Positions 21,205 to 45,805 of a stretch of DNA of 64,000 nucleotides are shown one piece after another. The position numbers and the translations under genes are program-made. Below the pieces are notes generated by a model. The model had not been told where the DNA came from. It searched no databases and saw nothing but the letters and a program-made list of their open reading frames with translations. How positions within the stretch are numbered: the first letter of the stretch is position 1; the number at the start of each line of letters is the position of its first letter. The DNA comes from Acidobacteriota bacterium (GTDB lineage Bacteria; Acidobacteriota; Terriglobia; Versatilivoradales; Versatilivoraceae): NCBI GenBank assembly GCA_022616615.1, contig JAKEER010000117.1:1-64000 (forward strand), given 5' to 3'.

Positions 21205-21394
21205 GGTACACGTGAGAACGATTTCGTAATCTCTTTGGTATACTCTGTCGATATAATTTCTGAACAGATTTACAAGCGGAGGAGAGTTTTGTAATTGTCC
21301 GGAGCGTAAGTCCATTCCGAGCCGCGCACTCAGATCTAAATTAAACTAAGGGAAGCCCTCTTTTGTACCGAATACGCTGCTGAATTGAGGTCGC

Positions 21395-21931
21395 TTGAAT
21401 AGTTACATCCTGTTAGGCGTCACGCTCTGTGTGAGCTGTGCTGCCATCATTGATGTGCTCACCCAGAAGATCCCTAATTGGCTGACCCTACCGTGCATGG
21501 CAGCCGGACTGGCGTTGAACTTTTTCTTCTTCGGACTAGCGGGTTTGTTATCCGGCACCGAGGGACTGGCGGTAGGCTTTGGCTTGCTGTTTCTGGTCTA
21601 TCGCTTGGGAGGAATGGGGGCTGGAGATGTCAAATTGCTGGCCGCTGTCGGCGCCTTTGTTGGCCCCCAATTGGTCTTTTACAGTTTTATTTGGATGGCT
21701 CTGGTCGGTGGAGTCTTGGCGATTCTGCTCATCTGCTACAAGAACGCCTTTGCTCAGACCTTCCGAAACCTGAAACTGCTGCTAGTAGGTTGGTTCTTAA
21801 AGACCCACGATCAGGATGCGAACCTGACAATTAGGAACCAGGCATTGCTCAAACTTCCCTATGGAGTCGCGATTGCCCTGGGCACGATTTTGGCAGTCTT
21901 TCTTCGCCAAATCCCGCGGTTTGGTTTTTGA
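21395..21931 (+). CDS. tadV: A24-family prepilin peptidase
   Basis: This 178-aa inner-membrane aspartic protease has about six helices. The two catalytic aspartates are in AAIIDVLTQKIPNW and in the GAGDVKLL (GxGD) motif. It processes the Flp prepilin leader. TTG 21395 is the start: GAGG lies about 6 nt upstream and there is no earlier start in frame. It lacks the N-methylation zinc domain of long PilD-type enzymes, as expected for TadV/CpaA proteins. It begins the assembly-gene run after the terminator. Confidence 0.9.
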   Translation: MNSYILLGVTLCVSCAAIIDVLTQKIPNWLTLPCMAAGLALNFFFFGLAGLLSGTEGLAVGFGLLFLVYRLGGMGAGDVKLLAAVGAFVGPQLVFYSFIWMALVGGVLAILLICYKNAFAQTFRNLKLLLVGWFLKTHDQDANLTIRNQALLKLPYGVAIALGTILAVFLRQIPRFGF

Positions 21932-21988
21932 AATTGCGAATCGACCTCACCGGAACTTTCCCGATGGTTTGAACCTAGGAGATCTCAT

Positions 21989-22828: not shown

Positions 22829-23051
22829 GGAGCATCTTTGATGTCGGGACACTCCCAAGCTTGTCCATTCGATGTCCTTGAGTCGGCGAGATTTCATTAA
22901 AGTGAGGCTACCGGCGTTTCGAAACGTAGTTGAGAACAGTTCATGGTGATCGGGCTTTCAATCCAATCCGGAATAGAGCTGAAGCCATGCTGAGCTCTCT
23001 TCTGTCAGGGTACTCGCCTTATTGTTCAAAGTTCCAGGAGGATTAATTCAC

Positions 23052-24494: not shown

Positions 24495-24524
24495 CCGTAG
24501 CATCCAACTAGGGAGTTTCGTTCC

Positions 24525-25715: not shown

Positions 25716-25830
25716 ATGCGAACGCCAGAGGCAGAACCGGGTTTGCAGCTAAGCTCTCCCGGCCCAGATTCAACAGCCCGCATCCTGAATTTGCTTGATT
25801 GGTCATTTTGATCTGAAAGGTATTGCCAAT

Positions 25831-27207
25831 ATGGGTGACACACGACTATTTACCAAGGAAGGTGCGCCAAGCCCGGATCGTAATTCATGGAACGACCGCT
25901 TGAACAAAGGCACTGGCGCAACGCCCAGTAGCGGCCACTTCCAGGTTTTGAAACACAACATTCATCGGAAGCTTTTGGACAAGCTGGATCTGCAAAGCAT
26001 TGCCTCGTTGAGCAAGCCGGTGCTTAGCAATGAGATTCGCAAGGTTGTGGAGAGCTTACTGGTTGAAGAGACCACTCCGCTAAGCTTGATGGAGCGAGAG
26101 AAACTCGTCAACGAAGTCTTGGATGAAGTTCTTGGGCTGGGCCCTCTGGAGCCGTTGCTCAAAGATGGAACAATTTCCGATATCCTCGTCAACACGCACA
26201 AGAAAGTTTACATCGAACGCCGCGGGAAACTGGAGGCCACCGATGTCGTTTTCAAAGATGATGCCCATCTGCTGCAGATCATCGACAAGATCGTTTCGGC
26301 GGTGGGCCGGCGCATCGACGAATCGTCACCCATGGTCGATGCACGCTTGCCCGACGGCTCGCGTGTGAACGCCATCATTCCGCCTTTGGCGCTGGATGGG
26401 CCAATTGTGTCGATTCGTCGGTTTGGTTCGACGCCACTGACGGCGGATGACATGTTGAACAACAACACTCTGACACCCGCGATGCTGGAACTGCTGAAAG
26501 GCATCGTGAAGGCGCGCCTCAACGTGATCATCTCCGGCGGCACAGGCTCCGGTAAAACCACATTGCTGAATTGCCTCTCCAGCTATATTCCAGAAGACGA
26601 ACGAATCGTCACGATCGAAGACGCCGCCGAACTTCAGCTCAAGCAGGAACACATCGTTCGTCTGGAAACCCGTCCGCCCAACATTGAAGGCAAAGGCGCT
26701 GTTCGCCAGCGGCAGTTGGTGATTAACGCGCTGCGTATGCGTCCCGACCGGATTGTGGTTGGCGAAGTCCGCGGCGAAGAGGCCCTGGACATGCTCCAGG
26801 CGATGAATACAGGCCACGACGGCTCTTTGACCACTATTCACGCAAACACCCCGCGAGACGCCCTGTCCCGAATGGAAACTATGATTTCCATGGCTAACCT
26901 CAATCTTCCGGACAAGGCCATGCGCCAGCAGATTGCTTCGGCTGTGGACGTGGTGATTCAGGCTTCGCGCCTGAGTGATGGCACCCGCAAGATCATGAGC
27001 ATTTCTGAAGTCGTAGGAATGGAAGGCGACGTGGTCACTATGCAGGACATCTTTGTCTTTGAGCGAGTTGGCATTGGAGAAAAGGGCAAGGTGTTGGGGC
27101 GATTTCGTCCAACCGGCATTCGTCCCAAGTTTGCCGAGCGGCTCAAATACGCTGGCATTCATCTTCCGGCCAGCATGTTTGACAATGTGACTGAATATAA
27201 GCGATAG
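25831..27207 (+). CDS. cpaF: Tad pilus assembly ATPase CpaF/TadA
   Basis: The protein has 458 aa from ATG 25831 (the track start, TTG 25795, lacks a ribosome-binding site, while GAAAGG precedes the ATG). An N-terminal helical domain is followed by the secretion-ATPase core: Walker [10 protein letters not shown] at about 236-244, [12 protein letters not shown], then [12 protein letters not shown] and the TTIHANTP His box. It is the hexameric motor that drives Flp pilus extension and, in TadA, retraction. Confidence 0.95.
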
Positions 27208-27301
27208 ACGGCAGTTAGGAAGGCAGCCTCGACTGTTTGTCAGCTCAGGACGAAGCGGCGGCTGCCACAGTCGAAGCGGTTGGGAGTGCAGGAGCGTTAG
27301 C

Positions 27302-28279
27302 ATGAATCCATTACTCATTGCTTCCGTCATTTTCATGATCGCGGTTCTCTTCGTCGGTAGTGTCTACTTTGCCATTTGGGAACTGCCTGAGAGAGAGAAG
27401 CGGAAAAAGATTAAGGATCGCTTGGAATCAATTTCCGAGGCTGGGCGGCGAATGCCCAGCCCGGAACTGGATATCATGAAGAGTGAACTCTTGAGCGATG
27501 TGCCAGCATTCAACAGGATGCTGCTTCAGTTCTCTCACTCGAACCAGCTCAAAAAGCTTATCGGCCAGGCGGACATGAAAATGAAGGTCAGCACCTTGAT
27601 CTTGGTTTCGCTTGTCTTGTTTGCCTTTGGGATCGTCGTTTCAAACCAACTGCTGAACATGCTGCCTGTCAATATTCTGATCGGTTTGCTTCTTTCCGCG
27701 CTTCCCTTCCTGGTTATTCTGTACAAGAGGAACCGCAGATTCAGGAAGTTTGAGGAACTCTTTCCCGAGGCTTTGGAACTGTTAACCCGCGCCGTCAAAG
27801 CCGGCCACGCTTTCAATACGGGCATCGAGATGATTGCTGAAGAAATGGTTGAGCCGATATCAAAGGAATTTCGCATCACCTTTGACGAACAGAACTTCGG
27901 CCTGCCGTTGAAACAGGCCTTGTTTAACATGGTGGAACGCATGCCCCTGCTGGACCTGAAATTCTTTGTAACCGCCGTTCTGATGCAGAAGGAAACCGGC
28001 GGTAACCTGGCCGAAATCCTTACGAACTTGTCACACCTGATTCGCGAACGGTTCAAGATCATGGGCGAAGTGCGAACGTTCTCCGCCCAGGGCCGCTTAA
28101 CGGGCTACATCTTGACGGCCGTGCCCATCGCTATGGGGTTCATCTTGTCGGCTATGAACTGGGATTACATGAGCGCTCTTTTCAAGGAACAGATTGGGCA
28201 CTACATGCTGGCCGGAGCTGGCTTCTGCCAGCTTTTGGGTTACATCATCATTCGCAAGATCGTGAACATTAAGGTTTAG
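27302..28279 (+). CDS. tadB: Tad platform protein TadB
   Basis: This 325-aa GspF-superfamily inner-membrane protein has one N-terminal helix, two in the middle (about 95-140) and two at the C-terminus. The T2SSF domain spans about 155-290 (FPEALELLTRAVKAGHAFNTGIE and KETGGNLAEIL). It pairs with TadC as the membrane platform that CpaF acts on. GGAG lies 7 nt before ATG. TadC follows 15 bp downstream. Confidence 0.95.
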   Translation: MNPLLIASVIFMIAVLFVGSVYFAIWELPEREKRKKIKDRLESISEAGRRMPSPELDIMKSELLSDVPAFNRMLLQFSHSNQLKKLIGQADMKMKVSTLILVSLVLFAFGIVVSNQLLNMLPVNILIGLLLSALPFLVILYKRNRRFRKFEELFPEALELLTRAVKAGHAFNTGIEMIAEEMVEPISKEFRITFDEQNFGLPLKQALFNMVERMPLLDLKFFVTAVLMQKETGGNLAEILTNLSHLIRERFKIMGEVRTFSAQGRLTGYILTAVPIAMGFILSAMNWDYMSALFKEQIGHYMLAGAGFCQLLGYIIIRKIVNIKV

Positions 28280-28294
28280 ACTGGCGGTGGATCG

Positions 28295-29233
28295 ATGGCG
28301 ATAATGATTGCTTTTCTCACCTTTGTTCTGGCGACCTCGCTGGTGTTTTACCTCCATTATGCCTTCATGAGGAAGAAGAACCCGCTTTCCGAGCGGTTGG
28401 CGGATCTTGAGAAGTCGAATCCCTTCCGGGCTTACGCCGAATCCGCGGTGCTGGCTCAGCGAGAGACCAACATAGAAAAGGTCTTTCAGCCGCTGAGCAA
28501 GCTGATGCCAAAGTCGCCGAACGAATTGAGTGCGACGACTCGAAAGCTGATGCAGGCGGGCTATCGCCACAAGTCGGCTGTCACGATTTTCTACGGCATC
28601 AAAGTAGGTTTCATACTGTTGGTGCTACTGGCTGCTTTCCTGAGTGGGCGGCTTCAGTCCGGCCCCGTGGAGAACATCTTCATCACGTTGCTGGCGTGCG
28701 TCGCCGCCGGCTACATTCTTCCAGACTTCATCCTTTCAACGCGAGTCACTTCGCGGAAGGAAAAGATCCAACTTGCGTTGCCTGATGCTTTGGACTTGTT
28801 GGTCGTCTGCGTCGAGGCAGGTCTCGGCCTGGACCAGGGCATTCTGAAAACGAGCGAGGAGCTGAGGGTAACGCACCCGGACATCTGTGATGAATTGAAC
28901 CTGGTGAATCTTGAGCTGCGCGCTGGAAAACCTCGCAAGGATGCGCTCAAGAATCTGGCCGACCGGACCGGTGTGGAAGACATGAATGGCTTAGTTTCGA
29001 TGCTGATTCAGACCGACAAATTTGGAACCAGCATCGCGCAGTCTTTACGAGTCCACTCGGACGCCCTGAGAACCAAGCGCCGCCAGCGCGCCGAGGAGCG
29101 AGCGCACAAGGTTTCGGTGAAACTGGTGTTTCCACTTGTTTTTCTCATCTTCCCCTCAATGTTCATTGTCATCCTGGGACCAGGGGTTATCAAGATCATC
29201 AAGCAGCTCATGCCTGCCATGGGTGGCGGTTAG
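28295..29233 (+). CDS. tadC: Tad platform protein TadC
   Basis: This 312-aa GspF-superfamily partner of TadB has the same topology: one N-terminal helix, two in the middle, a T2SSF domain (LPDALDLLVVCVEAGLGLDQGI ... QTDKFGTSIAQSLRVHSDALR) and a C-terminal helix pair. It ends the conserved Tad assembly set and is followed by a tiny membrane gene in the same run. Confidence 0.95.
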   Translation: MAIMIAFLTFVLATSLVFYLHYAFMRKKNPLSERLADLEKSNPFRAYAESAVLAQRETNIEKVFQPLSKLMPKSPNELSATTRKLMQAGYRHKSAVTIFYGIKVGFILLVLLAAFLSGRLQSGPVENIFITLLACVAAGYILPDFILSTRVTSRKEKIQLALPDALDLLVVCVEAGLGLDQGILKTSEELRVTHPDICDELNLVNLELRAGKPRKDALKNLADRTGVEDMNGLVSMLIQTDKFGTSIAQSLRVHSDALRTKRRQRAEERAHKVSVKLVFPLVFLIFPSMFIVILGPGVIKIIKQLMPAMGGG

Positions 29234-29493: not shown

Positions 29494-29841
29494 ATGCAGG
29501 CATTCAACGTCACGCAACAAAGAATGCTGGCCGGTGTTCTCACGGTTGCAAATACTTTTTTTCGCAGCTTGATGGGGCTGATGGGCAAGCCCGGTCTGGC
29601 GGAGGGACACGGGCTGTGGATTGTCCCTTGCCAGAGCATTCACACGTTCTGGATGCGGTTCCCCATCGACGTGATTTTTCTCGACCAGCATCGAACGGTC
29701 GTTCACCTGGTTGAAAGCCTCAGACCTTTTCGTGTTTCGAAGCATCTTTCCAAAGCAAGCAGCGTCATCGAGCTGCCCGTGAACGTCATCAGAACCACCT
29801 GCACCCGTTTGGGCGATGAGATCGAAATCACACAGAAATAA
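29494..29841 (+). CDS. DUF192-family protein
   Basis: This 115-aa protein matches DUF192: GLMGK near residue 28, HGLWIVPC and IHTFWMRFPIDVIFLD in the centre, and VIELP near the C-terminus. Many relatives are exported, but this one has no signal peptide. It starts 20 bp after the Tad terminator with no clear ribosome-binding site and ends inside the start region of the TPR gene. Function is unknown; the family is often found beside Tad loci. Confidence 0.85.
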   Translation: MQAFNVTQQRMLAGVLTVANTFFRSLMGLMGKPGLAEGHGLWIVPCQSIHTFWMRFPIDVIFLDQHRTVVHLVESLRPFRVSKHLSKASSVIELPVNVIRTTCTRLGDEIEITQK

Positions 29842-29851
29842 TCGAGGCGTG

Positions 29852-31369
29852 ATGTCATCACCGAGACAATCATCAAAGGTGCTGATTGCCCGGACGGAGA
29901 TCTCTGAAGGTTCGCGTTCTGGAGAGTGCACCCGTGAGCAGCCAGGGCGGGCGCGCGCTAGGCGGATCCGGCCTCTGGCATTGAAAGTGATGCCGTTGGC
30001 TATGGCGTGTGGCCTTGTCTTGATGACCGGTGCCTGTGTGCACAAGATCCGCGCGGTCAACGACAACTTTTATGTGATCAACCGAAGCGGCAAGCCGCCC
30101 AAGCTGTCGTTTACACATGACCTGAGGCTCGCTCCCAAGAGCCCACGACCTTTAGACTCCATCGAAACATCCGAGAGCCAGGCAAGCAGCAGGCCGCGAC
30201 CAAAGAGCTTGCTATCGAATGCGGAAATTCTGGAGGATGAGAACTCAGAGATGGCTGCTCTCCTGAGGAAGGTGAAGAGCGATCCGGCAAATGCCGGGGT
30301 CCACTCCCAACTGGGGCGAGCCTATCACGAATTCCGAATTTATGATGAGGCTTTGTGGCATTACCAGAAGGCGATCCAACTCGAGCCAGAAAATCCGGGC
30401 CACTATGAGCAGGCCGGAAGGTTATGGAGAGACTGGCAGTCGCCGCAGCAAGGTGTCAGTCTGGTGCAGAAAGCGCTGGAGCTTGAGCCGGATTTTGTTG
30501 AGGCGTGGAACACCTTAGGAACGTTGTTCGACCGGTTGGGGAATCGCAGGCAGGCGCAGGAAGCCTACTTGCAGGCACTGTCGCACGATCCAGGTCTCGA
30601 CTATGTCCACAATAACCTCTGCTTCAGCTATTTGCAGGATGGGCGTTTTGAGCAAGCCGTCCAGCACGGCGAGAGAGCAACGCAACTGAACCCGTCCATG
30701 CTGGTGGCTCACAACAATCTTGGGCTTGCCTATGGAATGCGCGGCGATCTGGTACGATCTCTCGAGGAATTTAGTCAGACGGGAGACGAGGCCGCCGCCA
30801 GAAACAATCTCGGGTTGATGCTCCTGAATTGGGGTCAGTTCGCTGAGTCGATGGAGCAGTTCAGGCTGGCGGCGCGTCTCAGACCGCATTATCGGGTTGC
30901 TGCGTCGAACTACCGGAGCGCGCGCGATCTGAAGTTTCAACAAGAACGAGCTTCCAAGGACAGAATGAGGGCCTTTGATCATGAGACCGGGCTGGCGGTC
31001 CTACCCGGGTCTTTAGGACTTGTGGCACTCAAGGAAGCCGGGTTGAACCTTTTAAGTGGTCCTTTGGAGCTGCTCTCAGCTTTACCCGTGCTGGCGCCTT
31101 CACTTGTGCCGCCGGCCAGCCCCATAGTGGAAGTTGAGGTTGAAAGCCTCGGGGGACCCAGCCAGGACGGAAGGATCTTGGGTGGGCTGCTTGGCAATGA
31201 GTGCCTGTTCCTGACGACGCGCACCGAGCGCACGCGCACGGTCGTTTATTACAGACCAGGATATCTCAAAGCGGCTTTGGAACTGGCGCATTCCATTCCT
31301 GGAAACCAGACTGTCCTCGAGACCAGTCCTTCGGAACAGAACGCCGGCATCAGGGTTCTGCTGCCGTGA
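29852..31369 (+). CDS. TadD-like TPR lipoprotein with LytR_C-like domain
   Basis: The track starts this at ATG 29816 inside the DUF192 gene, but ATG 29852 has GAGG just upstream and is preferred (505 aa). A basic stretch RARARRIR precedes a hydrophobic segment ending in LMTGAC, a possible lipobox. Five or six TPRs follow at about 110-360. The C-terminal 90 residues (IVEVEVESLGG ... TVVYYRPGYLKAALELA) look like a LytR_C domain. TPR lipoproteins named TadD help assemble the Tad secretin, so that role is likely. Confidence 0.7.
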   Translation: MSSPRQSSKVLIARTEISEGSRSGECTREQPGRARARRIRPLALKVMPLAMACGLVLMTGACVHKIRAVNDNFYVINRSGKPPKLSFTHDLRLAPKSPRPLDSIETSESQASSRPRPKSLLSNAEILEDENSEMAALLRKVKSDPANAGVHSQLGRAYHEFRIYDEALWHYQKAIQLEPENPGHYEQAGRLWRDWQSPQQGVSLVQKALELEPDFVEAWNTLGTLFDRLGNRRQAQEAYLQALSHDPGLDYVHNNLCFSYLQDGRFEQAVQHGERATQLNPSMLVAHNNLGLAYGMRGDLVRSLEEFSQTGDEAAARNNLGLMLLNWGQFAESMEQFRLAARLRPHYRVAASNYRSARDLKFQQERASKDRMRAFDHETGLAVLPGSLGLVALKEAGLNLLSGPLELLSALPVLAPSLVPPASPIVEVEVESLGGPSQDGRILGGLLGNECLFLTTRTERTRTVVYYRPGYLKAALELAHSIPGNQTVLETSPSEQNAGIRVLLP

Positions 31370-31489: not shown

Positions 31490-32839
31490 ATGGATTCTGA
31501 AGTCATCGTTAGTGATGTGAAGATTGTTGATGAGAGCAGCCAGAAGCTGATGGCGAGCTATACGCCGCCAACTCCGGCAAGTTTGAAGGAAGTCGGAGTC
31601 AACCGAGACTCACTGATCCACTTGGTGGTCAAGGTTCTCTATTACGCCGGCGAAGTGACCGGATCTTATCTGGCGTCGCGGATGAAGCTGCCTTACACGC
31701 TAGTGGACGAGCTCATCGAATTCGTCAAAGCGGAAAAGCTGTGCGAAGTAAAGGGAATGGCTGGCATCGGCAAGTCCGCTTACCGATATGCGATCACGTC
31801 GCTTGGAAGAGACCGAGCCCGCGAGTTTCTCGAAATCAATCAATACACCGGCGCGGCTCCGGTTCCGCTAGCGCAATATATTGAGATGATCAAACGGCAG
31901 GCCGCTGCCCGGTCGTACATCACGCAGGAAGGCATTGCCAAGAATTTCTCTCACCTGGTTCTTAGCAAGCAGATGCTTGACATGCTTGGGCCAGCCATCA
32001 ACTCAGGCAAGTCAATGTTTGTTTATGGTGCGCCTGGAAACGGCAAATCCGTCGTTTCTGAGGCGATTGGCCATATGCTTGGCGGGGAGGTTTATATTCC
32101 TCATGCCATTGACGTGGATGGCATCGTGATCACGATTTACGATCCCATCAACCATCATGCATACGAGAGCGACAAGGTCCCCGAGTCTTCAGGTTACCGG
32201 TCGCCGATATTCAGCGACACCGAAGATTTTGATCAGCGATGGGTGCGCTGCCACCGCCCCTTTGTTTTCGCTGGCGGGGAGCTGACGCTGGACATGCTTG
32301 ACTTGTCGTTTAACGAAATCGCCAAGTTTTATGAAGCCCCTTTTCAGGTGAAGGCCAACGGAGGCGTTTTTCTGATCGACGACTTTGGCCGCCAATTGGT
32401 GCGCCCGAAGGATCTGTTGAACCGGTGGATCGTCCCGCTCGAAAAGCGAGTCGATTACCTGACGCTGCACACGGGGAAGAAATTCGAGCTGCCCTTTGAC
32501 GCACTGATCATTTTCTCGACCAACCTCAAACCGCAGGAACTAGTCGACGAGGCCTTCTTCCGCCGCATTCGTTACAAGATCCACTTTGAAAATCCAACGC
32601 TGGAAGAGTACAAGGAAATCTTCAAGAATTACTGCCGCACCAAGAATATTGTCTACAATCCGATTATCGTGGATTACATGCAGACAGAGTTCTATCAGAA
32701 ATACGGCGTGGAAATTCGGCGCTGCCATCCACGGGATGTCATCGAACAGGTAGCCGACATCGCCCGTTATTTGAATACGCCGCCAGCACTCACTAAGGAG
32801 TTGGTGGACGCGGCCTGCCATAGTTACTTCGTGAAGTGA
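31490..32839 (+). CDS. AAA+ ATPase with winged-helix-like N-terminus
   Basis: The protein has 449 aa. Residues 35-115 resemble a winged helix (LASRMKLPYTLVDELIEFV). The AAA+ domain has Walker A YGAPGNGKS (179-187), Walker B VFLIDDFGR (293-301, with Asp-Asp instead of the usual Asp-Glu), a sensor-1-like FSTNL and an arginine-rich AFFRRIRYKI segment. The overall form recalls MoxR-type remodelling ATPases, but no partner VWA gene is nearby. AAAGGAG lies 8 nt before ATG. Its neighbours are Tad genes, a membrane coiled coil and divergent J-domain and PilZ genes, which suggests remodelling of an envelope complex. Confidence 0.8.
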   Translation: MDSEVIVSDVKIVDESSQKLMASYTPPTPASLKEVGVNRDSLIHLVVKVLYYAGEVTGSYLASRMKLPYTLVDELIEFVKAEKLCEVKGMAGIGKSAYRYAITSLGRDRAREFLEINQYTGAAPVPLAQYIEMIKRQAAARSYITQEGIAKNFSHLVLSKQMLDMLGPAINSGKSMFVYGAPGNGKSVVSEAIGHMLGGEVYIPHAIDVDGIVITIYDPINHHAYESDKVPESSGYRSPIFSDTEDFDQRWVRCHRPFVFAGGELTLDMLDLSFNEIAKFYEAPFQVKANGGVFLIDDFGRQLVRPKDLLNRWIVPLEKRVDYLTLHTGKKFELPFDALIIFSTNLKPQELVDEAFFRRIRYKIHFENPTLEEYKEIFKNYCRTKNIVYNPIIVDYMQTEFYQKYGVEIRRCHPRDVIEQVADIARYLNTPPALTKELVDAACHSYFVK

Positions 32840-32877
32840 TTCCTTCAGGCGGCCGGTTCGTTCAGAGGCAGACGCTG

Positions 32878-33228
32878 ATGTTCGACAAGATCAGATATGC
32901 TCTAACGCTGTTCGACAGTACGGAGATCTTCATCCTGTTTGCCGGTCTGATTGTTTACCACCTCGTCATTCTGCTCTTCATCACTATGTCCGTTCGAGCC
33001 TCGGCGGTGCTACGGCTCAGGTCGCTGGAAGCGGAACGGGATGAATACAAGAAGAACTGGCAGCATCGCGATGAAGGGTGGAAAGATCGTGAAGAAGGGT
33101 TGCGGCGAATCCTAAGCGAGGAGCGGGAGCGGCAGGTTTCGCAGCTCAAGGCAGAGTACGATTCTTACATCGGACTGCTGGAACAGAAACTGACCAGGAC
33201 GAAAACCCGCGAGACGGGAATGTCTTAG
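32878..33228 (+). CDS. Small membrane-anchored coiled-coil protein
   Basis: The protein has about 116 aa from ATG 32878 (the track uses GTG 32836, which would overlap the ATPase gene). One strong membrane helix (IFILFAGLIVYHLVILLFITM) is followed by about 70 charged residues rich in Glu, Arg and Lys with coiled-coil heptads (LEAERDEYKKNW, LSEERERQVSQLKAEYD). It lies about 40 bp after the ATPase and is probably its partner, tethering it to the membrane. No family recognised. Confidence 0.65.
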   Translation: MFDKIRYALTLFDSTEIFILFAGLIVYHLVILLFITMSVRASAVLRLRSLEAERDEYKKNWQHRDEGWKDREEGLRRILSEERERQVSQLKAEYDSYIGLLEQKLTRTKTRETGMS

Positions 33229-33299
33229 CCTGCCTACGATACTGTAGACTGCAAGAACCTCCAGTGCTCAGGGAGGCCTACAATGTCATCATACTTACT

Positions 33300-34751
33300 C
33301 TACCGGCTCATTGACAGCCGCCACGCGGCGTCAAACTCGTCGACGCTCTGGTGCGTCACTTTTTGAAAAGCATTCTCGAAGTTGTAGTTTTGTCCCATGA
33401 GATCGAGGATGCTTCGGATTGAAGGCTTGCCTAGCGAAGCCACCAGATGCTCAACAGCCGCCAGTCCCTCAATATAGGCGACTGAGGCAGCGCCAGCGGA
33501 CAGTCCGACGAACGATCCTTTCAACCCCTTCAAAGGAATCAGTTGACCTTCCTTGTTCAGTGCTTCGAGCCATTTGCGGTAGTTGGAAGCCGATTTCCCC
33601 TCTTGAAATTGCGCGACTCCTTCGTTAAACCACGAAGGGCAACCGCGTCCGGGTAGCGATCGAATGAACGCGTGCGTCAGCTCGTGAACCAAAACTGCGG
33701 AAAGCTCCGTTGTGACGGAGGCGAGTCCTTTGGTAGGAACACGAATCTTGCCATCAAAAAGGGCACCCGACCAGCTGGGGGCTTGGGTTATGTCGAAGTA
33801 GGCTTGATCGGGATACAGAATCACGGCGACCGTCGCTGGTGCCTGGGAAGTCAGGTCAATGCTCAGCTGGCGGTAGAGGCTTTCGAGTGTCGTCAGAATT
33901 TGCTGGCCGAGCCGGTAATCAGACACCTTGCGGTCGTAACGTAAGATGAAGTGGGCGCTCTGCAACACGCCCAGCTCGCTGTGCACCCCTGACTCCTGGC
34001 GCGCTTTTTCCAGCCTGGCAGAAATTTCTGGGCTCGGGCCAAGCTGCAGCGCTTCAGTCCACTGTCTGATGGCTTGCGCGACTTTCTCTTGGGCGTAGTA
34101 AGCCTCACCCAGCAGGTAATGGGTCCACTGATTCCTTTTGTCCAATTCCAGGCATGTCAGCAGTAGATCTTCGGAGGCGCGATAGTTCCCTGTACGGTGA
34201 TTGATGATTGCCAAGTTTGACAGAACAGCAAGGTTTCTCTTGTCCAGGGCCAAAGCTTCCTCAAGGCTGCTCTTAGCGGACGCAAGATCCCCCTGAGCGG
34301 CCTGAAGAGACGCGAGCGAATTCAGGCCGCGCACGAGTTCTGATTTGGCGAGTGCGTCCGCCGGATCCGCTTTCAGATTCTCTCTGAGCCGGTTCAGCAG
34401 CTCTTTGGAAATGGTTGACGTCCCGCCACGCAAGGGAGTGTCCAGCGGCGCCTTGGGTTCGCTTGGCGCGGAAGGACTGCGTTCGTCAATGGCAATGCCG
34501 TATCTTCTAGAAGGCCCCTCGGGCGTGGGAAGTGACTTTTGCTCCTGGATTCTCCGCACAGCAGATTTCGGGAGAACTTGGACCTTGCCTCCGGTCTGAT
34601 ATCTAATTTCAGCACCTTCCTCCCAGGCTTTCTCAACGACCAGCACATTTCCGTTCGTGAGATAGACGACATCCGCCGTCAGCCTCGCTGGGAGGCTGAT
34701 AAGCAAGAAGTAACTTAGGGCTGCGGTGTTCAGTTGGCGCGGAGATTTCAT
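33300..34751 (-). CDS. Secreted TPR protein with gluzincin peptidase domain
   Basis: Start is set at ATG 34751 (483 aa) because the track start at 34889 would overlap the previous gene, while 34751 begins a good signal peptide (ALSYFLLISLPARLTA). Then come VVYLTNGNVLVVEKA, a beta-rich segment, four to five TPRs (about 120-260) and a peptidase_MA-like domain at about 290-460 with the zinc site HELTH and WFNEGVAQF, the second Glu being the third ligand. It is likely a periplasmic metallopeptidase. It lies 37 bp after the repeat-protein gene on the same strand. Confidence 0.8.
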   Translation of the reverse strand: MKSPRQLNTAALSYFLLISLPARLTADVVYLTNGNVLVVEKAWEEGAEIRYQTGGKVQVLPKSAVRRIQEQKSLPTPEGPSRRYGIAIDERSPSAPSEPKAPLDTPLRGGTSTISKELLNRLRENLKADPADALAKSELVRGLNSLASLQAAQGDLASAKSSLEEALALDKRNLAVLSNLAIINHRTGNYRASEDLLLTCLELDKRNQWTHYLLGEAYYAQEKVAQAIRQWTEALQLGPSPEISARLEKARQESGVHSELGVLQSAHFILRYDRKVSDYRLGQQILTTLESLYRQLSIDLTSQAPATVAVILYPDQAYFDITQAPSWSGALFDGKIRVPTKGLASVTTELSAVLVHELTHAFIRSLPGRGCPSWFNEGVAQFQEGKSASNYRKWLEALNKEGQLIPLKGLKGSFVGLSAGAASVAYIEGLAAVEHLVASLGKPSIRSILDLMGQNYNFENAFQKVTHQSVDEFDAAWRLSMSR

Positions 34752-34788
34752 GGGCCCGACGGGAAGAGAAACAATTTGGCGGAAGGCA

Positions 34789-35916
34789 TTATTTGCCAGG
34801 CTCAATGGTTTGAGCGACCTTCTGGGAGACCGCCAGATTGCCATTGGCGTCGCGAGTCTTGATGGTTCTTTCGACGCTAACCTTTCCATTTCCCAGAGGC
34901 TTAGAAGTCTCTGTCACCAGCTCGCTGACCCGCAGACCGCCTGACGGATTTAGCGGATCGACTGCTTCGACTTGGGTGCTGCTCTGAATGCTGCCGTCCG
35001 GCAGCCGGCGTTCTTCTCCGGTCACGCGTTGCGAAAGCGTGAGCCCGGTACTGTTCACGTTTGGCAGCAGGCGGTGCACATTTCGCGACTCGAGAAGCCG
35101 CTGGTAGTTGCGGACACCGTCGGAAGTTTCAGATTGGGTCTCGGTGACTCTGTCTGTCAACAAGAACCGGCCGTCATAGCTTGTCTGATGGACCGCCGTT
35201 TCCTTTTTGAAGGCGTTCTCGCCGAGCTTGGTCGTCGTTTCCTTGACGTTTTCGACCACAGCCATGCGACCGCTGGCTTCTTTGAGTTTCCGGCTGCTTT
35301 CCTTCACCGTCAATGTTTCCGAGATCTTCCTTTCGCTTGCTTCTTCGATCTCAGCGAGTGAAAACTTGCCTTCGGCGTCGGGCCGGTAGAGAGCACGGGT
35401 CAATTGTCGTTCCTTAGGTGAAGTTCTAACGACCGTTTCATTCTCGACAATCTGCGCGGCCATCTTGCCGTTAATGTCTGGCCGATAATACGACCTTTGC
35501 GTTTCTTCAGTATTTCCCTTCAACATATGATCTTCTTTGATCAGCTCTTGTGTTGCCAGCCGCCCGTTCAAGTCCGGTGTCCGGATGGTTCGCTCTACCT
35601 GATATTGAGTGTCGCTGATCCGGCGGCTTAGCTCACTCTCCTCCCGATCCACGCGCTCGCCACCGTTGATTGAAAGCGCCCGAAAAGCCGTGGTTCGTTG
35701 GTAGTTCTTGTCGTCTGCAAGTTTCTGGTATTCAGAGACCTTCGTCTCGGAGCCCATACGGTCCGTGCTCGTTGGCACATAGAGGTAGCTGGTCGATGAT
35801 TGTTCTCGCCCGCCTGATTTCTTGGCAGTTTCCTGGCCCAGTGTCAAGACGGGAAGAGCCAACAAAGCCAGGACGACCGCGAGGCTAAAGCTTCTCATAG
35901 AATGACTGCGTTGCAT
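34789..35916 (-). CDS. Secreted protein of about eight 33-residue repeats
   Basis: Start at ATG 35916, ahead of a signal peptide (MRSFSLAVVLALLALPVLTLGQ); the track start at 36057 adds unrelated sequence. After about 60 residues the 375-aa chain is built from roughly eight units of about 33 residues, each with an aromatic or Thr stretch, a D/S-x-x-G-R/K core (PDLNGRLA, PDINGKMA, PDAEGKFS, SYDGRFLL, RDANGNLA) and a strongly charged linker. Such spacing suggests a beta-solenoid or filament. It is upstream of the metallopeptidase gene in an apparent operon. No family recognised. Confidence 0.7.
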   Translation of the reverse strand: MQRSHSMRSFSLAVVLALLALPVLTLGQETAKKSGGREQSSTSYLYVPTSTDRMGSETKVSEYQKLADDKNYQRTTAFRALSINGGERVDREESELSRRISDTQYQVERTIRTPDLNGRLATQELIKEDHMLKGNTEETQRSYYRPDINGKMAAQIVENETVVRTSPKERQLTRALYRPDAEGKFSLAEIEEASERKISETLTVKESSRKLKEASGRMAVVENVKETTTKLGENAFKKETAVHQTSYDGRFLLTDRVTETQSETSDGVRNYQRLLESRNVHRLLPNVNSTGLTLSQRVTGEERRLPDGSIQSSTQVEAVDPLNPSGGLRVSELVTETSKPLGNGKVSVERTIKTRDANGNLAVSQKVAQTIEPGK

Positions 35917-36145
35917 TGGCTTAACCCTGCCTTGCCCGCAAGAATTCAATTCGATAATTTTCTCATCGACGCTCACCGGCCTGTAGATTAGGGCCAATTT
36001 GCTTGTGCCGATGAATGAGCTTTTTGGTACCGAAATCCTGCGGCATCCAGCCAGCAAGGACCACCCTTGTGAATAGGTCTCGCCCCTTCAACGACACAAA
36101 TGCTAGGAATGCCCAAAACACCTTCTCGCTTTCGACGGCATTGAG

Positions 36146-37399
36146 TTAGCTCTTCAGGAGTTTCAGAGTGGTCAAAGGCAATGACTTGTTGGCCGTGTCT
36201 TTCGCCCGTACCAAGAAGCCGCCGCCGGATCTGGGATGAGACTCAATGGGAATGCCAAGGACGTGCGCAGACATATCGTAGAAGCTTTTCGCAAGGGGAA
36301 TTGAGTCGCTTTGAAGAGTCAAAGGGTCGCCTGACTGAATCGAGCGAATCAGTGACTTGTAATCGTTGGGGATTGACCAGAAAACCTTGAAATTAAGAGT
36401 CTTCTCAACCTCTTTGATGCTGACATCGTTACCCTTAAGATACCGGTTGAGCAGCAGCCGAATGCGACTTGAAGAGTAACCGAGGCGCTCGAACCCATGC
36501 AGCACTCGCTGGGCATTGCGTAGGGCCGGCAGACTACACTTGGAAATCAAGAAAATGATGTGTGAAGAATCCAGGACTGACACAACCAACTCGTTTAGCG
36601 TGCTGGAAGTGTCAATGATGATGTAGTCGTACTCCATCTGCAGAATAGCCAGCAGCGGTCTTACCTCCGCAGCCAATGCTCGCGACTTCTGCGGGAAACC
36701 GTCGCTGAAAGAGAGCAGGTCAATTCCGGTCTTTGAGTGTGTCGTGATGGTTCTGAAAATCAAAGCCGGGTCGAGAACTGAGTCCTTGCTGTCTTCCTGA
36801 ACCAGAAACTTATGACTCTTCAGTCCGAAGAATCCGGCCACATCCCCGAATTCGACGTCCAAATCAAAAACAAGAACCTTCTTCTTGGAAAGCTTGCTCA
36901 AGCTGACTGCAAAATTCGTGGAGATTGTCGTCGAACCGTTGCCACCCTTGCAGCTAAAGAACGAGAATATCGTAGCAGGTTCCTTAGCCTGGGCCGATGG
37001 GCCGATCTGCCTCTGAACTCGCACAAACGCCTGGTGTACGGCTTCTGCGGTCAACGGCCTCGAAAGAATCTCCTTCACTCCCAGCCGCAGGGCTTCAATC
37101 AAAAAGCCTGAATCGAACGATTCACCCGCAGTAAGGATTGGGACTCCTGGAAAATTTTGCTGCAGATCTTTGAGCAACTGCAAGCTGGATTGGGGGTCTT
37201 TGCTGAATTCAACTAAGAGGACATGGGGGTCGATGCTTGCCATCTCTTCCCAAGTTTCATTGCTGAAACCTTCCGACGCGCCGAGGACCTCTAATACGAT
37301 CCTGGCAGAATCAATTTTCCCCACATGATGGCGACATTCTTTTCTAAACCGATCTTCCCAATAGATTACCAGGGTCCGAAGTTTTTCTGTCGTTGGCAT
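36146..37399 (-). CDS. Second CpaE/TadZ-like ATPase
   Basis: This 417-aa protein is a paralogue of the CpaE at 24525, with the same plan: receiver-like N-terminus (to about 130) and MinD-like domain. The Walker A is CKGGNGSTTISTN, again lacking the phosphate-binding Lys (Ser156) while keeping signature Lys151. Sequence similarity to copy 1 is evident (SLPALRNAQRVL against SLRNAQRCL; TLNFKVFWSIPNDY against TLNFPVNWFFPNDW). It lies on the opposite strand in the accessory module, so it may place a different complex. Confidence 0.85.
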   Translation of the reverse strand: MPTTEKLRTLVIYWEDRFRKECRHHVGKIDSARIVLEVLGASEGFSNETWEEMASIDPHVLLVEFSKDPQSSLQLLKDLQQNFPGVPILTAGESFDSGFLIEALRLGVKEILSRPLTAEAVHQAFVRVQRQIGPSAQAKEPATIFSFFSCKGGNGSTTISTNFAVSLSKLSKKKVLVFDLDVEFGDVAGFFGLKSHKFLVQEDSKDSVLDPALIFRTITTHSKTGIDLLSFSDGFPQKSRALAAEVRPLLAILQMEYDYIIIDTSSTLNELVVSVLDSSHIIFLISKCSLPALRNAQRVLHGFERLGYSSSRIRLLLNRYLKGNDVSIKEVEKTLNFKVFWSIPNDYKSLIRSIQSGDPLTLQSDSIPLAKSFYDMSAHVLGIPIESHPRSGGGFLVRAKDTANKSLPLTTLKLLKS

Positions 37400-37792
37400 G
37401 AAATGTTTGCTTCTCCGAAGGTTTGACGTTCAACTACCCGACGCTGTGCAATTTAAGGGCCCAGGGATTCTCCAGTGACATCTTGAGAAACGAGCCAAGT
37501 GGTGGCTCATTCCCAACTCGTCCTTTGCACCCGCCATTCCCCATAGAGTGGACTGTTCCCCCGAATTCATTGGGCAAGAACCGTGTGAATCCAATCGTAC
37601 TGAGATCGCTCGCCAACCTCGCGGGAATTTCGTCGAGGCTCAAACTCGGAAAAAATGTCCTCAAGAAATCCCGAAAAGTGGAAATAAATTACCCATCGAT
37701 GCGAATTGACCGAGAAAGAGAAACCGCTATATCTGACCAACTAGCATTGGGCCTTCAGGCACCCGAAGCGATGTCCCCACCAGCGCAATGTC
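37400..37792. other. Gap between TadZ2 and PilZ genes
   Basis: A 129-codon plus-strand ORF (37423-37812) spans most of it, but its composition is not protein-like and it overlaps the PilZ gene antisense. I regard the stretch as untranslated, probably holding the promoter for the second TadZ gene. Confidence 0.4.
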
Positions 37793-38704
37793 TTAGAGAG
37801 CTTCGACTTTGACTTTTTGATCGATGAATTCAATGCCGGCAAGCCGGAAGGAGTTCTCGCGCGACGGCTGAATCCAACGGATTTTCGCCAGGGCTGCAAA
37901 CTCCTCAGGCATCCGGACGCCAATCTCGGATTGACTGCCCAGGTCCTTTCCAGAAAAAACGATGCAAGCTCCGTCTTCACATACATTTACAGTGTAGGTG
38001 TGGAATTGTAATTGAGTGTCCTCGCTCAGATAGCTGACAGTAATGGGGAGGATAACGACTTTTCTTGCCGTCTTCCGCAGCGAGTAAAGGCCGCTGGATC
38101 CCTTAAACTCACCGGCAGTTGTGTCCGGAGCGGTTACACTGGCCGGAGGCTCTGCAAGATCCCCGGCTGAAGCCGCCAGCAGAGGGTTTGTACTGTCGAG
38201 CGAGCCAAGGTTTTCTACGGAGCGCCGCATTTCTTGCACCAGCAGTTGCACTTGGTCTATCCGCTCCATCACTTCTCTCAAGTCGCGCTCTAGCTGCGGC
38301 GACGCCTTGCGTCCAAGCTGAGCTCTGGCAAAAAACATGATTGCCGACAGAGAATGCTCAATGCCCTGGCAAAAGGTTCCCAGTCGCTTAGACAGTTGGG
38401 CCTCGATTCGTACTGCCTGTAGCCTTTTTTCTTCCTCTGCATCTTGCTTTGCAGGAACCAACCCATTATTCCGCAAAGCCAAAATATTTGAGTATAAGGC
38501 GAGACAGGTTGCGACGAGCGCGAAAACCAGGACTTCCAGTAGCAGTAGGGCAGGATTGCGCATCACTCCGTGGAACTGCAAAACGATTAACAGAACTACC
38601 TGGTAGAAGACAAAAGCACAACCTCCCCACAGAACGTGGGCGATACGAGGGTGATCACTCGAAGTCAGAAAACCCTCAATAGCTTTCCGCTGGCTCTTTG
38701 CCAT
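37793..38704 (-). CDS. Membrane PilZ-domain protein with kinase-like helix
   Basis: The protein has 303 aa from ATG 38704 (track start 38839 adds a Cys-rich non-homologous stretch). Two membrane helices (about 25-75) are followed by a long helical segment. In it, FCQGIEHSLSAIMFFA looks like the H-box of a histidine kinase, but there is no ATPase domain. The C-terminal 100 residues are a PilZ domain with RKTARK (RxxxR motif) and VNVCEDG, where Cys replaces the usual Ser of DxSxxG. Binding of cyclic di-GMP is likely. Confidence 0.7.
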   Translation of the reverse strand: MAKSQRKAIEGFLTSSDHPRIAHVLWGGCAFVFYQVVLLIVLQFHGVMRNPALLLLEVLVFALVATCLALYSNILALRNNGLVPAKQDAEEEKRLQAVRIEAQLSKRLGTFCQGIEHSLSAIMFFARAQLGRKASPQLERDLREVMERIDQVQLLVQEMRRSVENLGSLDSTNPLLAASAGDLAEPPASVTAPDTTAGEFKGSSGLYSLRKTARKVVILPITVSYLSEDTQLQFHTYTVNVCEDGACIVFSGKDLGSQSEIGVRMPEEFAALAKIRWIQPSRENSFRLAGIEFIDQKVKVEAL

Positions 38705-38948
38705 GGTGCAATGGATTTGAAACACGTCCCAGCACGGGATCGGCTGTGTTGCTGACGACAGAAATTCTAACACGGAACACGCGGCACGCAGTAGGGACAT
38801 GGGAAACCGGCTCTGCAGGACCCACGAGACAGCGCCCAAGACCCGCAGCCAACGCCCCTTTTCTACTGGACAATGCCTGCTCCTTAGCCTTGCCCAAACA
38901 ACTTGGCTCTGGCGTCAGAAGGTCGAGGGGAAGATCGAACAGGTGGAG

Positions 38949-39617
38949 TCAAGAGCCCAGGTTCTTACAGACGACTTCTGCGATGGCTTCTGCGAGCGAA
39001 TTCTTGATGCGGTTCATGTCAAAGGGTTCTGCCAATTGTTGTACTCTATCGCTGCAATCTCCGTTGAATTTGGAACCGGTCGGAACGCCGCGAAGCTGGT
39101 ATTCTCGATTCAGTATCCGGGTCACGAGCCCCACCGAATTCAGGTTGTAGTCGGAAACGCGAGTGAAAAGGTCTTCGAGCTTCTTCTGAAACTGGTTGAT
39201 CTCTTCCACGATGTGTTGGCGGTCGCGTTTCAGATTCTCAAACTCCAACCGCTCTAGAGCTGACTGGTGCTGCTCAATCGCGGCCTGAGTTTTCTTGAAC
39301 TCGAGCTCCAGGGCATGACGGATGCCTACCAGATTCTGCAAACGGTCGTTATCGGCCTTGAGTTTCCTTTCCCCTGCCTGGATGCTTTCTTCAATTTCCC
39401 TTTTTTGCCTATCGTCGAATTCTCCAATGAGTTCTCTCGCCTGAATCTCGTAATACCGGTTTTTCAGGTGTTCCAACTCAGTTTCAACTTTTTCGACATT
39501 GTTGACCGAGGTATTCTTGATTTGATCGTCGATCTCGGTCACCTTTTCGCGAATCTTGCCAATCTTCTGTTCAAGGCCTTGCATCGCCTGCTCAATCTCT
39601 AGTTGGGTTGCTGGCAT
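38949..39617 (-). CDS. Coiled-coil protein of unknown function
   Basis: The protein has 222 aa and no signal peptide or membrane helix. Residues 1-160 are almost wholly coiled coil (LEIEQAMQGLEQKIGKIREK, then repeated Leu/Ile heptads), and the last 60 residues form a small separate domain. AGGAG lies 5 nt before ATG. It is probably in one operon with the J-domain gene upstream and the PilZ gene downstream. A scaffold or tether role is possible. No family recognised. Confidence 0.65.
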   Translation of the reverse strand: MPATQLEIEQAMQGLEQKIGKIREKVTEIDDQIKNTSVNNVEKVETELEHLKNRYYEIQARELIGEFDDRQKREIEESIQAGERKLKADNDRLQNLVGIRHALELEFKKTQAAIEQHQSALERLEFENLKRDRQHIVEEINQFQKKLEDLFTRVSDYNLNSVGLVTRILNREYQLRGVPTGSKFNGDCSDRVQQLAEPFDMNRIKNSLAEAIAEVVCKNLGS

Positions 39618-39707
39618 TGTTTCTCCTGAGTTCCTGAAATTCTGGCTTGAGCCGACTTGGCCGCTCGCGACGCTTGTCTCAAAGGGCCGCGCTGGCGGGC
39701 GCCCCGT

Positions 39708-40337
39708 CTAACGCCGGCCTTCCGGTAAGGAAAGAATCTGCTTGTCTGTTTCCTTCTTTACTAACTCGTTCTCGACGTAATCAACGCCAGCAATCGAGAT
39801 GGAGAAGTCGGCAGACTCACTGATCCGGATGTAGCCTTTCTCCTTCAAATACCAGTTTGAAAACTCCAGATTCTCGATCGAGCAGCCCAGCAACTCCGCC
39901 AGGACCAGCATGGAAACCTCGGGGCTTCCAGGAGAATTGCGTCGCACGTCGTAAAGGACCATCAGCATCAACTTTCTGAGTTCTCGCTCAGAGAGGCCCG
40001 CATCCCCCGGTGCTGCGTCTGCTTCGGCTCCGAATCTTGCCCTCAACTCCTCCCGGCTTCGCGCTATTCCGGGCGCGGGTTCGTCTGCGCGGATCTTTGG
40101 AGCACTTGCGGCGTCTTTGCCGAGGAACTCAATATTGTACCGGGATCTCTTGGTAGGATCAGACAGCACCTCATATGCCTTAAGTACGGTCTTGAACTTT
40201 TCCTCGTTTCCCGTCTGCTTGTTGTCAGGATGATAGTAAGCAGCCAGCAGCCGGTAGACTTTCGTAATGACGAGTTGCTCAGCATTGGGGCTGAGCTGCA
40301 GGAGCTCATAATAATTCTGTGGCGCGCGTTGGCTCAT
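39708..40337 (-). CDS. J-domain protein
   Basis: This 209-aa protein has a J-domain at about 6-70: NYYELLQLSPNA, the HPD motif in AAYYHPDNKQTG, and KAYEVLSDPTKRSRY. The Gly/Phe-rich and zinc regions of DnaJ are absent, so it is a specialised co-chaperone that would stimulate a DnaK partner on one client. Residues 105-205 are a separate helical and beta domain (ELRKLMLMVLYDVRRNS, LKEKGYIRIS) resembling a winged helix. The clients may be the coiled-coil and ATPase proteins encoded nearby. Confidence 0.85.
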   Translation of the reverse strand: MSQRAPQNYYELLQLSPNAEQLVITKVYRLLAAYYHPDNKQTGNEEKFKTVLKAYEVLSDPTKRSRYNIEFLGKDAASAPKIRADEPAPGIARSREELRARFGAEADAAPGDAGLSERELRKLMLMVLYDVRRNSPGSPEVSMLVLAELLGCSIENLEFSNWYLKEKGYIRISESADFSISIAGVDYVENELVKKETDKQILSLPEGRR

Positions 40338-40494
40338 GATTCTGATTGACTCATGTTGTCCTGAGTTTGCCAGGAAGCCTGCCTCCTGGGTCGATAGAAT
40401 CGATAGCCCTGGGGCGGCGTTTGGAACAATCGAAAGAGGAACTGATGATTGACGATGGTTACCCTATGGCTTCATCGGCTGGGTGACGTTGCGA

Positions 40495-40881
40495 CTAGTG
40501 AGGTTTCTCGACAAGCCATTCAACCACCAGTCCGGTGACCCCCAGAACGAAACTTACAACAAAGGCAAAGAAGAGCTCGCCTCCAAATAAAGTGTTATTC
40601 AACGGCAGCGGAACGTGCTCCTCGTTGTAGAAAAACGCGGTGACCAATACTAGAGCACCCAAAGCCAGATAGGGTGATCCATTTTTCTTCTTAAGGAACA
40701 TATTGAACAACGCAAACAGAAACCCACCGGCGCCGATAGTGATGATGAATACCTCAAAGCCACCCCGAATGTTGCCAACCGATCGAAACTGAAAATAGTC
40801 GTTGATTGGCTCTATCTGTGAGATATACGGGCTTCCCGCCAGCAATAAGGAAAGAAGCGCCAGAAGAAGATTCGGTCCCAT
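40495..40881 (-). CDS. Small multi-pass membrane protein
   Basis: The protein has 128 aa with four hydrophobic segments: a signal-like first helix (LLLALLSLLLAGSPYI), then GFEVFIITIGAGGFLFALFN, YLALGALVLVTAFF and FFAFVVSFVLGVTGLVVEW. A short positively charged loop (KKKNGS) separates the second and third. No family recognised. It precedes the J-domain gene by about 160 bp on the same strand. Confidence 0.55.
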   Translation of the reverse strand: MGPNLLLALLSLLLAGSPYISQIEPINDYFQFRSVGNIRGGFEVFIITIGAGGFLFALFNMFLKKKNGSPYLALGALVLVTAFFYNEEHVPLPLNNTLFGGELFFAFVVSFVLGVTGLVVEWLVEKPH

Positions 40882-43627: not shown

Positions 43628-45721
43628 ATGAACGCCACCGACATTTCACGAACCCAACCCCATTGCATTCTGGCGGTCGACGACGACCCCAAGATTCTCC
43701 ATCTCACCGAGATGATTCTGACGAAGGAGGCCTATTCGGTTGCTTTGGCCGGCTCGGTCGAGGAGGCGCGGAAGATTCTGCAAGAGCGCAAGGTGGACTT
43801 GGTGCTGCTGGATGTGATGCTTTCTGACGGCGACGGCTTTTCCTTGTGCAAGAGCATCAAGGAGAATGCTGAAACCCGCGATATCCCGGTCATCCTGCTA
43901 ACGGCGCTGGACACCATCGATAGCAAGGTGCGAGGGCTCGACGTCGGGGCCAGTGACTACTTGGTCAAACCCTTTCTGAAGAAAGAACTGCTGGCGAGAA
44001 TCCGTTCCCATCTCCGCGAGCGGGAATTCGCACAGGAGATGAAGACGTTGTACGCCTACGAAAAGCAGCGGGCGCACCAGGTGGCCATTCTGAACAAGCT
44101 GACCACCGAGTTCAACCAGTCTCTTGATCAGATGGAACTGCTGCAGCATGCGGCGCAGGTCATCAGCACCGAGCTGAACTTCCAAGGGTGCTTGATTGCC
44201 ACTTGGGACGACAGAGCCTCGCGGTTGAGTGTCGCGGCGGCCTATCGCCCTGGCCACGACCTTCGCTTTGATGGGAATTCGTTCCAGACGGAGCAGGGCA
44301 TCATGGGCTGGGTGGCTTCTCATCGAGAGCCACGTATTGTGCCCGACGTTCAGATGGAGCCGCAGTATCTGCGGTTTTTTCGGGATACACGCTCTGAAAT
44401 GGCGGTGCCACTAGTGCACCAGAAGAAGATTCTGGGCGTGCTCAATGTTGAAAGTCACTTGCCGCATGCCTATAACTCGGATCATCTCAACTTGCTCACC
44501 ATGGTGGCCGGCAATCTTGCCCTAGCCCTGAAGAACGCTGAACTCTATTCCACGGCGAAAGTGCACAGCCAGAACTTGAAGTCGATGGTGGAGCTGCGAA
44601 CGCGCGAGCTAGAAAGCCAGAAGCGATTCATGGAGTGCATTGTCGACTCGCTCCCGATTGGCCTCTATGTCGTCGACAAAGACTATTCCGTGACGACCTG
44701 GAACCGAAAGCGCGAAACAGGAATTCTTGGAATCTCGCGAGAGCAGGTTATTGGCCAGAACGTTCTTTCTGTCTTCTCCAACATGTCTTCGGACAGGTTG
44801 AAAACAGAAATTGACCATGTGTTTTCCACGGGCCAGCCGTTTGAGACCCAGACGGCCTCCTGGTCTTCAGGCGAAAAGCGCTACTATCACCTGCGCAAAA
44901 TTCCCATGTCGATTGATGGCAGCGCCGTGAGCCATGTCATTACACTGGGTGAAGACATCACCGAGCGGCGGCGAATGGAGGAATCGCTGGCGACGAATGA
45001 AAAGCTGGCGAGCATCGGCAAACTCGCGGCAGGCATTGCCCACGAAATCAACAACCCGTTGGCCGCCATCGCAGGATGCGTCGAGGGCCTGATTTCGCGA
45101 GCGCAGGATGAGGCACTGGCCAGGGTGGCCGCCTTCGAAGATTTTCCCGAGTATCTCAAGATCATTGACGGTGAGATCTTCCGCTGCAAAGGCATCATCA
45201 ACAACCTGCTCGATTTCAGTCGGAACAAGGAAATCCTCAAACAAGAAATTCGCGTAAATGAAACGCTCGAGCAAACCCTGCAGCTTCTCAGCCACCACAA
45301 GAGCTTCAAACAGATCCAGGTCGTGAAAGAGTTGGATTCGGAGTGCCCTCCAGTCGTCGGCAACAGTGGAGAGCTTCGGCAGGTATTCCTGGCGATGTGC
45401 ATCAACGCAATGGACGCCATGAACGAGTCGGGGATGCTCACCATACGCACCACAACCGAAATGCACAACAACCAGAGCTTTGTTCGCGTGCAGTTTCAAG
45501 ACACAGGCATTGGCATTCCACCGGGTAATCTCAACAAGATCTTTGACCCGTTTTTCACCACTAAGCCTGTCGGGAAGGGCACCGGATTAGGCCTTTCCAT
45601 TTGCTATGGTATCGTGCGCAGTCATGAAGGATCGATCAAGGTCGAGTCGGAAATAGGCAAAGGAAGTACCTTTCAGATTCTTGTGCCTGCCAAGGCTATT
45701 AATCAGATCAGTGGTTCCTAG
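43628..45721 (+). CDS. Hybrid histidine kinase (receiver-GAF-PAS-HisKA-HATPase)
   Basis: This 697-aa soluble kinase has an N-terminal receiver at 12-130 with Asp62 (LVLLDVML), a GAF domain at about 160-305, a coiled-coil link, a PAS domain at 335-445, HisKA with His472 in [15 protein letters not shown], and HATPase at about 560-690 with N box CINAMDAM, G1 QDTGIGIPP and G2 [10 protein letters not shown]. The NtrB-like catalytic core and the NtrC-like gene 84 bp downstream form a two-component pair. An N-terminal receiver suggests that it also accepts phosphate from another kinase. Confidence 0.9.
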
Positions 45722-45805
45722 GGAGAAGGGACAGGGGAAACGGGGTGAGAGCAACCGACCGTGTCTCCTGACCTCTGCACCTACCAAAAGAACAAGAGGA
45801 CCGCA

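Follow-up and report, generated by a model that had tools for sequence, protein, structure and literature searches.

Many soil bacteria make Tad pili, and to our knowledge few partners of these pili are known beyond the core machine. The stretch of Acidobacteriota DNA analysed here (the window, 64,000 nucleotides) carries a Tad locus followed directly by nine further genes. An earlier note had read these nine genes as one trans-envelope machine under c-di-GMP control. Whether they form such a machine, serve the pilus, or merely adjoin it is the question of this work. In distant relatives several of the extra genes occur again, either with one another or next to Tad genes; the group is therefore probably a set of helpers of this pilus, so far undescribed, and not a separate machine.

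Gene organization of the window

All nine open reading frames are present, on two strands, with the domains that the earlier note had assigned to them. They are listed here with the neighbouring Tad genes.

20969–29233, +: Tad core, pilin ORF through TadC
29494–29841, +: DUF192 protein, recurrent in Tad operons bearing the AAA+ gene
29816–31369, +: TPR lipoprotein-like protein in a TadD-like position, directly upstream of the AAA+ gene; the TPR-AAA+ order recurs
31490–32839, +: AAA+ ATPase, 449 aa
32836–33228, +: CC116, membrane-anchored coiled-coil protein, 130 aa from GTG, 116 aa from the ATG at 32878
33300–34889, -: PepMA, exported TPR and Peptidase_MA metallopeptidase; likely start 34751, with signal peptide
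34789–36057, -: REP, exported 33-aa beta-hairpin repeat protein; likely start near 35916
36146–37399, -: TadZ2, receiver-like domain and deviant-Walker MinD-type ATPase (KGGNGST)
37793–38839, -: PilZ protein, two predicted TM segments and a PilZ domain of marginal Pfam score
38949–39617, -: CC222, coiled-coil protein, 222 aa
39708–40337, -: J protein, J-domain (HPD) and C-terminal winged-helix-like domain, 209 aa
40495–40881, -: TM128, small membrane protein, 128 aa

The coiled-coil protein previously given as 116 residues is the reading from the ATG. The REP and PepMA frames overlap by 101 bases because the PepMA start is probably over-long, a signal peptide being predicted from M47. An EF-G gene follows the minus-strand block immediately. 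Past this EF-G-like gene, nt 43628–47173 (+) encode a hybrid receiver/GAF/PAS histidine kinase and then an NtrC-type response regulator. The host is a metagenome-assembled genome of 9.58 Mb, made up of 918 contigs and with contamination estimated at 8%; named relatives of its AAA+ protein suggest that the group lies in Acidobacteriota. That G006, another genome of the family, shares the gene order argues against a chimeric contig.

The Tad locus upstream of the nine genes, already recognized in the earlier note, is borne out by profile matches. These cover the TadA motor, the TadB/TadC platform, RcpC/CpaB, the secretin, TadZ and the prepilin peptidase (T2SSE 5e-64, T2SSF twice, RcpC 5e-25, Secretin 9e-49, AAA_31, Peptidase_A24). 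The gene order is Flp-like pilin ORF, prepilin peptidase, CpaB/RcpC, CpaC secretin, TadZ1, TadA, TadB and TadC. The 57-aa ORF at nt 20969–21142 (+), just upstream of the prepilin peptidase gene, carries GQDLVEYALLL as read by eye, and likely encodes the Flp major pilin.

An AAA+ ATPase family linked to Tad loci

The AAA+ protein has a Walker A motif GAPGNGKS, an invariant DDFG Walker B motif and a sensor-1 Asn. Its AlphaFold2 model (pLDDT 85.6) shows an AAA+-like fold and, at the N-terminus, a winged-helix-like part. Solved structures come no nearer than distant AAA+ proteins, the best match being 8p49, Q8U0N8 of Pyrococcus furiosus. The protein has no Pfam match above the cut-off, and no Pfam, NCBIfam or PADLOC model is specific to its family. 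A text search of PMC6668835 brought up no AAA+ protein of this kind among the Tad components, and the open-licence papers searched held nothing relevant on a Tad-linked AAA+ accessory ATPase like that of the window.

Several named identities were considered and rejected. A sigma-54 enhancer-binding protein is disfavored by a partial Sigma54_activat match at 20.0 of 20.2 bits and a sequence free of GAFTGA. For a MoxR ATPase, bpMoxR scored 16.0 of 27 bits, and the genes scanned encode no vWA domain. The IetA/IteA defence ATPase was dismissed with 30.5 of the 510 bits needed in NCBIfam and with short, generic PADLOC matches. The module as a whole is likewise not taken for a defence system, PADLOC giving just short generic matches to AAA+ and coiled-coil proteins.

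In a species-level genome collection the family numbers at least 588 loci. In Acidobacteriota, Gemmatimonadota and Chloroflexota it lies within or adjoining Tad operons. The closest loci of the first two phyla have the gene after TadC, often with a DUF192 or TPR gene, and in Chloroflexales it stands before TadA. It is solitary and away from Tad in most other loci of Chloroflexota, Myxococcota and Nitrospirota and in several members of the class. On the AAA+ tree (a second tree was also made) Tad linkage requires five changes, versus about 18 in shuffles; linkage is therefore clustered, yet was gained or lost several times.

A survey of 247 Acidobacteriota genomes, including that of the window, found the AAA+ family in 21. 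RcpC is present in 17 of these 21 (16 of 20 without the window's genome), versus 52 of 247 overall, a 21% background. With the window's genome set aside, the comparison is 16 of 20 AAA+ genomes versus 35 of 226 (p = 3.6e-9, in a sample of related genomes). This and the other co-occurrence p-values overstate independence, because the sampled genomes are related; a count by family, with an approximate number of families, retains the trend. In about 13 of the 21 genomes the AAA+ gene lies on the same strand as Tad genes and at most 13 kb from them. The functional link to Tad that the earlier note had proposed is thus supported by co-occurrence, shared presence within the family and recurrent linkage, and from these genomic data the AAA+ protein appears to be a well-supported Tad accessory. 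Two genomes carry two copies each: in G388 (C221, C627) one copy adjoins REP and the other does not, and in G347 (C360, C381) one copy is near J.

The J protein and the repeat protein

The J protein matches DnaJ (9e-19) and has HPD at residue 36, as a J-domain co-chaperone should. Because a phylum-level search with the J-domain returned mostly ordinary DnaJ proteins, relatives of J were sought by the C-terminal domain alone. The profile was seeded with five sample genomes picked by the J search and not for AAA+. Of the 247 genomes, 12 encode this winged-helix-like domain, and AAA+ is present in 8 of the 12. Among the 11 other than the window's, 7 have AAA+ (Fisher, p = 2e-6, related genomes). 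J is not Tad-specific, because in four genomes it is near ClpB/Hsp20 genes (two genomes) or sigma-54 regulator genes. In the latter two, G178 and G015 (L078:8270-9772, L237:8002-9621), the J-winged-helix gene directly follows the gene of an NtrC-type regulator.

The 33-residue repeat reported for the exported protein is real: the lag-33 self-similarity is -0.01, and the maximum reached after shuffling is -0.39 +/- 0.05. The AlphaFold2 model of REP (pLDDT 83) is an all-beta sheet of 33-residue hairpins. The predicted polar hairpin sheet and a likely signal peptide suggest that REP probably acts outside the cytoplasm. An outer-membrane barrel was rejected. The composition (31% charged, 4% aromatic) and the C-terminus (...EPGK) are wrong for one, and the fold matches, of which the best are barrels, are weak (TM 0.36–0.46 for the best ten).

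REP relatives occur in 7 of the 247 genomes, 6 with AAA+ and 6 with J. Without the window's genome, J is present in 5 of the 6 (Fisher, p = 4e-7), and the AAA+/REP co-occurrence has p = 1e-5 by the same test, again among related genomes and with a profile that included G175, a genome found because its REP adjoins AAA+. AAA+ and REP are adjacent in G175 and also in G388, and both genomes have AAA+, J and REP and lack RcpC. In G015 the REP match falls in a subfamily that is encoded beside a miaB-like gene. In G058 an Hsp70-like gene (L189:2729-4054, +) lies about 5 kb from the REP relative.

Physical linkage to AAA+ is found in other lineages for each of J, REP and TM128, in differing arrangements. 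J is linked through a Usp gene (J-Usp-AAA+) in G157 and G347, both of the same genus; Usp was not taken as a module part, as this arrangement was seen in two genomes of one genus. A TM128 homologue is convergent with AAA+ in the distant genome G128, within a Tad-DUF192-TPR-AAA+ locus whose AAA+ protein is 56% identical to that of the window. Besides G128, TM128 was found among the 247 genomes only in the window's own. An HD-GYP-type response regulator (HD_5 5.8e-37; L243:15206-16279, -) is encoded beside the G128 homologue. None of full-length J, REP, PilZ, CC222 and TM128 was near AAA+ in the 80 closest named loci.

The sister locus and the lineage-limited genes

The family sample comprises 12 genomes. 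AAA+, full-length J, REP and RcpC are all confined to the same two, the window's and G006, which belongs to a different genus. The G006 locus lies on two contigs, both breaking inside PepMA. One reads Tad-DUF192-TPR-AAA+-PepMA', the other 'PepMA-REP-TadZ2-J-TM128-EF-G; from the matching PepMA halves we infer that the two adjoin. The locus is otherwise collinear with the window and lacks the PilZ gene. The AAA+ and PepMA genes of G006 are only some 225 bp apart, too little for CC116, which within the family is so far specific to the window. CC222 is reduced in G006 to a remnant (a short match of 33 residues, 42%), and a search of 199 other genomes of the class gave no homologue.

TadZ2 has a 57% identical orthologue in G006 and PepMA has one at the same place; compared within the family, both were seen only in the window and this one sister genus. 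TadZ2 (AAA_31 9e-13) combines a receiver-like domain with a deviant-Walker MinD-type ATPase, as in CpaE/TadZ. It groups with TadZ proteins in a tree, though not as the sister of TadZ1, which rules out a recent TadZ1 duplicate. PepMA matches Peptidase_MA_2 (1.8e-11) with TPRs and has the HExxH motif (HELTH...E). Motifs for activity are present in AAA+, J, PepMA and TadZ2.

The PilZ domain scores 22.9 bits at a cut-off of 22.5, a marginal match. The RxxxR motif is present (RKTAR), and the second motif, expected as (D/N)xSxxG, reads NVCEDG. A relative, G340, encodes a PilZ-J-winged-helix fusion protein (L238:9763-10632, -; PilZ 1.7e-8, DnaJ 5.5e-18). An unclassified N-terminal domain of similar size is found in the related J proteins of L081, L082 and L236.

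Proposed working and alternative readings

The genes fall into three layers: the AAA+ Tad accessory, the co-inherited J and REP, and lineage-limited additions (TadZ2, PepMA, PilZ and the coiled coils). Judged by sequence, the set goes beyond chance adjacency, but a single nine-part machine is unsupported. We give a probability of roughly 0.55 to an expanded Tad-pilus locus, in which an unnamed AAA+ family has recurrent J/winged-helix and exported beta-hairpin-repeat partners and lineage additions.

The sequence itself shows the gene content, the identity of the domains, the synteny, the co-occurrence and the recurrent linkage. For every functional step, the oligomeric state, the clients and any c-di-GMP input we infer the following. 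A previously unnamed AAA+ ATPase family would act with the Tad machine. The soluble ATPase, presumably a hexamer, would cooperate with the J protein, and the latter would recruit Hsp70. Targets of remodelling or quality control by the pair may be Tad components of the cytoplasm or inner membrane, or else the exported repeat protein. The lineage would have added a second TadZ, the metallopeptidase and the small membrane protein, and only here the PilZ protein and the coiled coils. A second positional cue would come from TadZ2. REP and the peptidase would function on the far side of the inner membrane. The set may be under c-di-GMP control, as suggested indirectly by the G340 fusion and by the HD-GYP regulator beside the TM128 homologue.

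The nine-part machine of the earlier note is highly improbable. The core is collinear in G006, and a PilZ domain is present and is fused to J-winged-helix in G340; however, the sister locus lacks CC116 and PilZ and keeps a mere remnant of CC222, a protein that no other sampled member of the class has. Of the genes whose synteny with AAA+ that note had proposed as a check, J co-occurs with AAA+ and is linked to it in G157 and G347, and CC116 and PilZ are absent from the sister locus. The independent scattering in relatives that was named as adverse to that reading is seen only in part: J and REP often lie apart from AAA+, yet most of the genomes concerned carry AAA+ as well. The opposite extreme takes the plus-strand AAA+ gene for a Tad accessory and the minus-strand genes for an unrelated operon that happens to abut it. 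Opposite strands, the EF-G gene immediately after and the limited distribution of several minus-strand genes are consistent with it. We consider it unlikely, given that other lineages show linkage of AAA+ to each of J, REP and TM128, in different arrangements, and that AAA+, J and REP share presence and absence within the family.

AAA+, J-winged-helix and REP might instead be a unit of their own, Tad-adjacent in some lineages only, in which a beta-repeat protein prone to aggregation is kept export-competent by the ATPase and the co-chaperone. Nearly all REP genomes have J and AAA+, the RcpC-free G175 and G388 have AAA+ next to REP, and REP is a predicted all-beta repeat sheet with many charged residues. 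Yet most of the Acidobacteriota AAA+ genes seen in Tad loci have neither REP nor J adjoining them. REP is also confined to few genomes, by a profile seeded in part through AAA+ adjacency, and partners may differ by paralogue because G388 carries two AAA+ copies. This reading is rather unlikely. A related proposal, that the three proteins are a dedicated undescribed chaperone-export unit which several Acidobacteriota lineages coupled to their Tad pili, is put forward tentatively. If it is true, the repeat protein would be a new extracellular or periplasmic Tad partner.

On the preferred reading of an expanded Tad-pilus locus, a non-motor AAA+ protein recurring beside TadC in several phyla is a testable candidate for regulation or maintenance of the pilus. 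The co-inheritance of AAA+ and J, together with the PilZ-J fusion of G340, would connect the control of the pilus with chaperones and possibly with c-di-GMP.

Comparison with known systems

The window shares with Tad/Flp (type IVc) pilus loci the pilin-like ORF, prepilin peptidase, RcpC/CpaB, secretin, TadZ, TadA, TadB, TadC and TPR protein, in order. It differs in adding the AAA+ ATPase, DUF192, the J-domain protein, the repeat protein, the second TadZ and others. The anti-phage ATPases IetA (PADLOC) and IteA (NCBIfam) are the best named-model matches of the AAA+ protein outside Pfam, over short generic AAA+ stretches; the window has no partner defence genes and offers a Tad context instead.

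In Myxococcus, CsdK1 and CsdK2 are PilZ domains fused to a DnaK chaperone (PMC10313047). The likeness lies in joining PilZ to the Hsp70 chaperone system, as the PilZ-J fusion of G340 does. In the window, by contrast, PilZ and J are separate genes and the module has no DnaK. By analogy with the G340 fusion and these proteins, a c-di-GMP input to the chaperone part is plausible, with a window PilZ domain that is itself marginal.

Archaeal type IV pilus loci carry linked MoxR/GvpN ATPases, paired with vWA proteins (PMC4858521). The window differs in having no vWA among the genes scanned and a bpMoxR score far below the cut-off. What the two have in common is a non-motor AAA+ protein recurrently linked to type IV filament genes, and the archaeal loci are a precedent for such an ATPase beside type IV pili.
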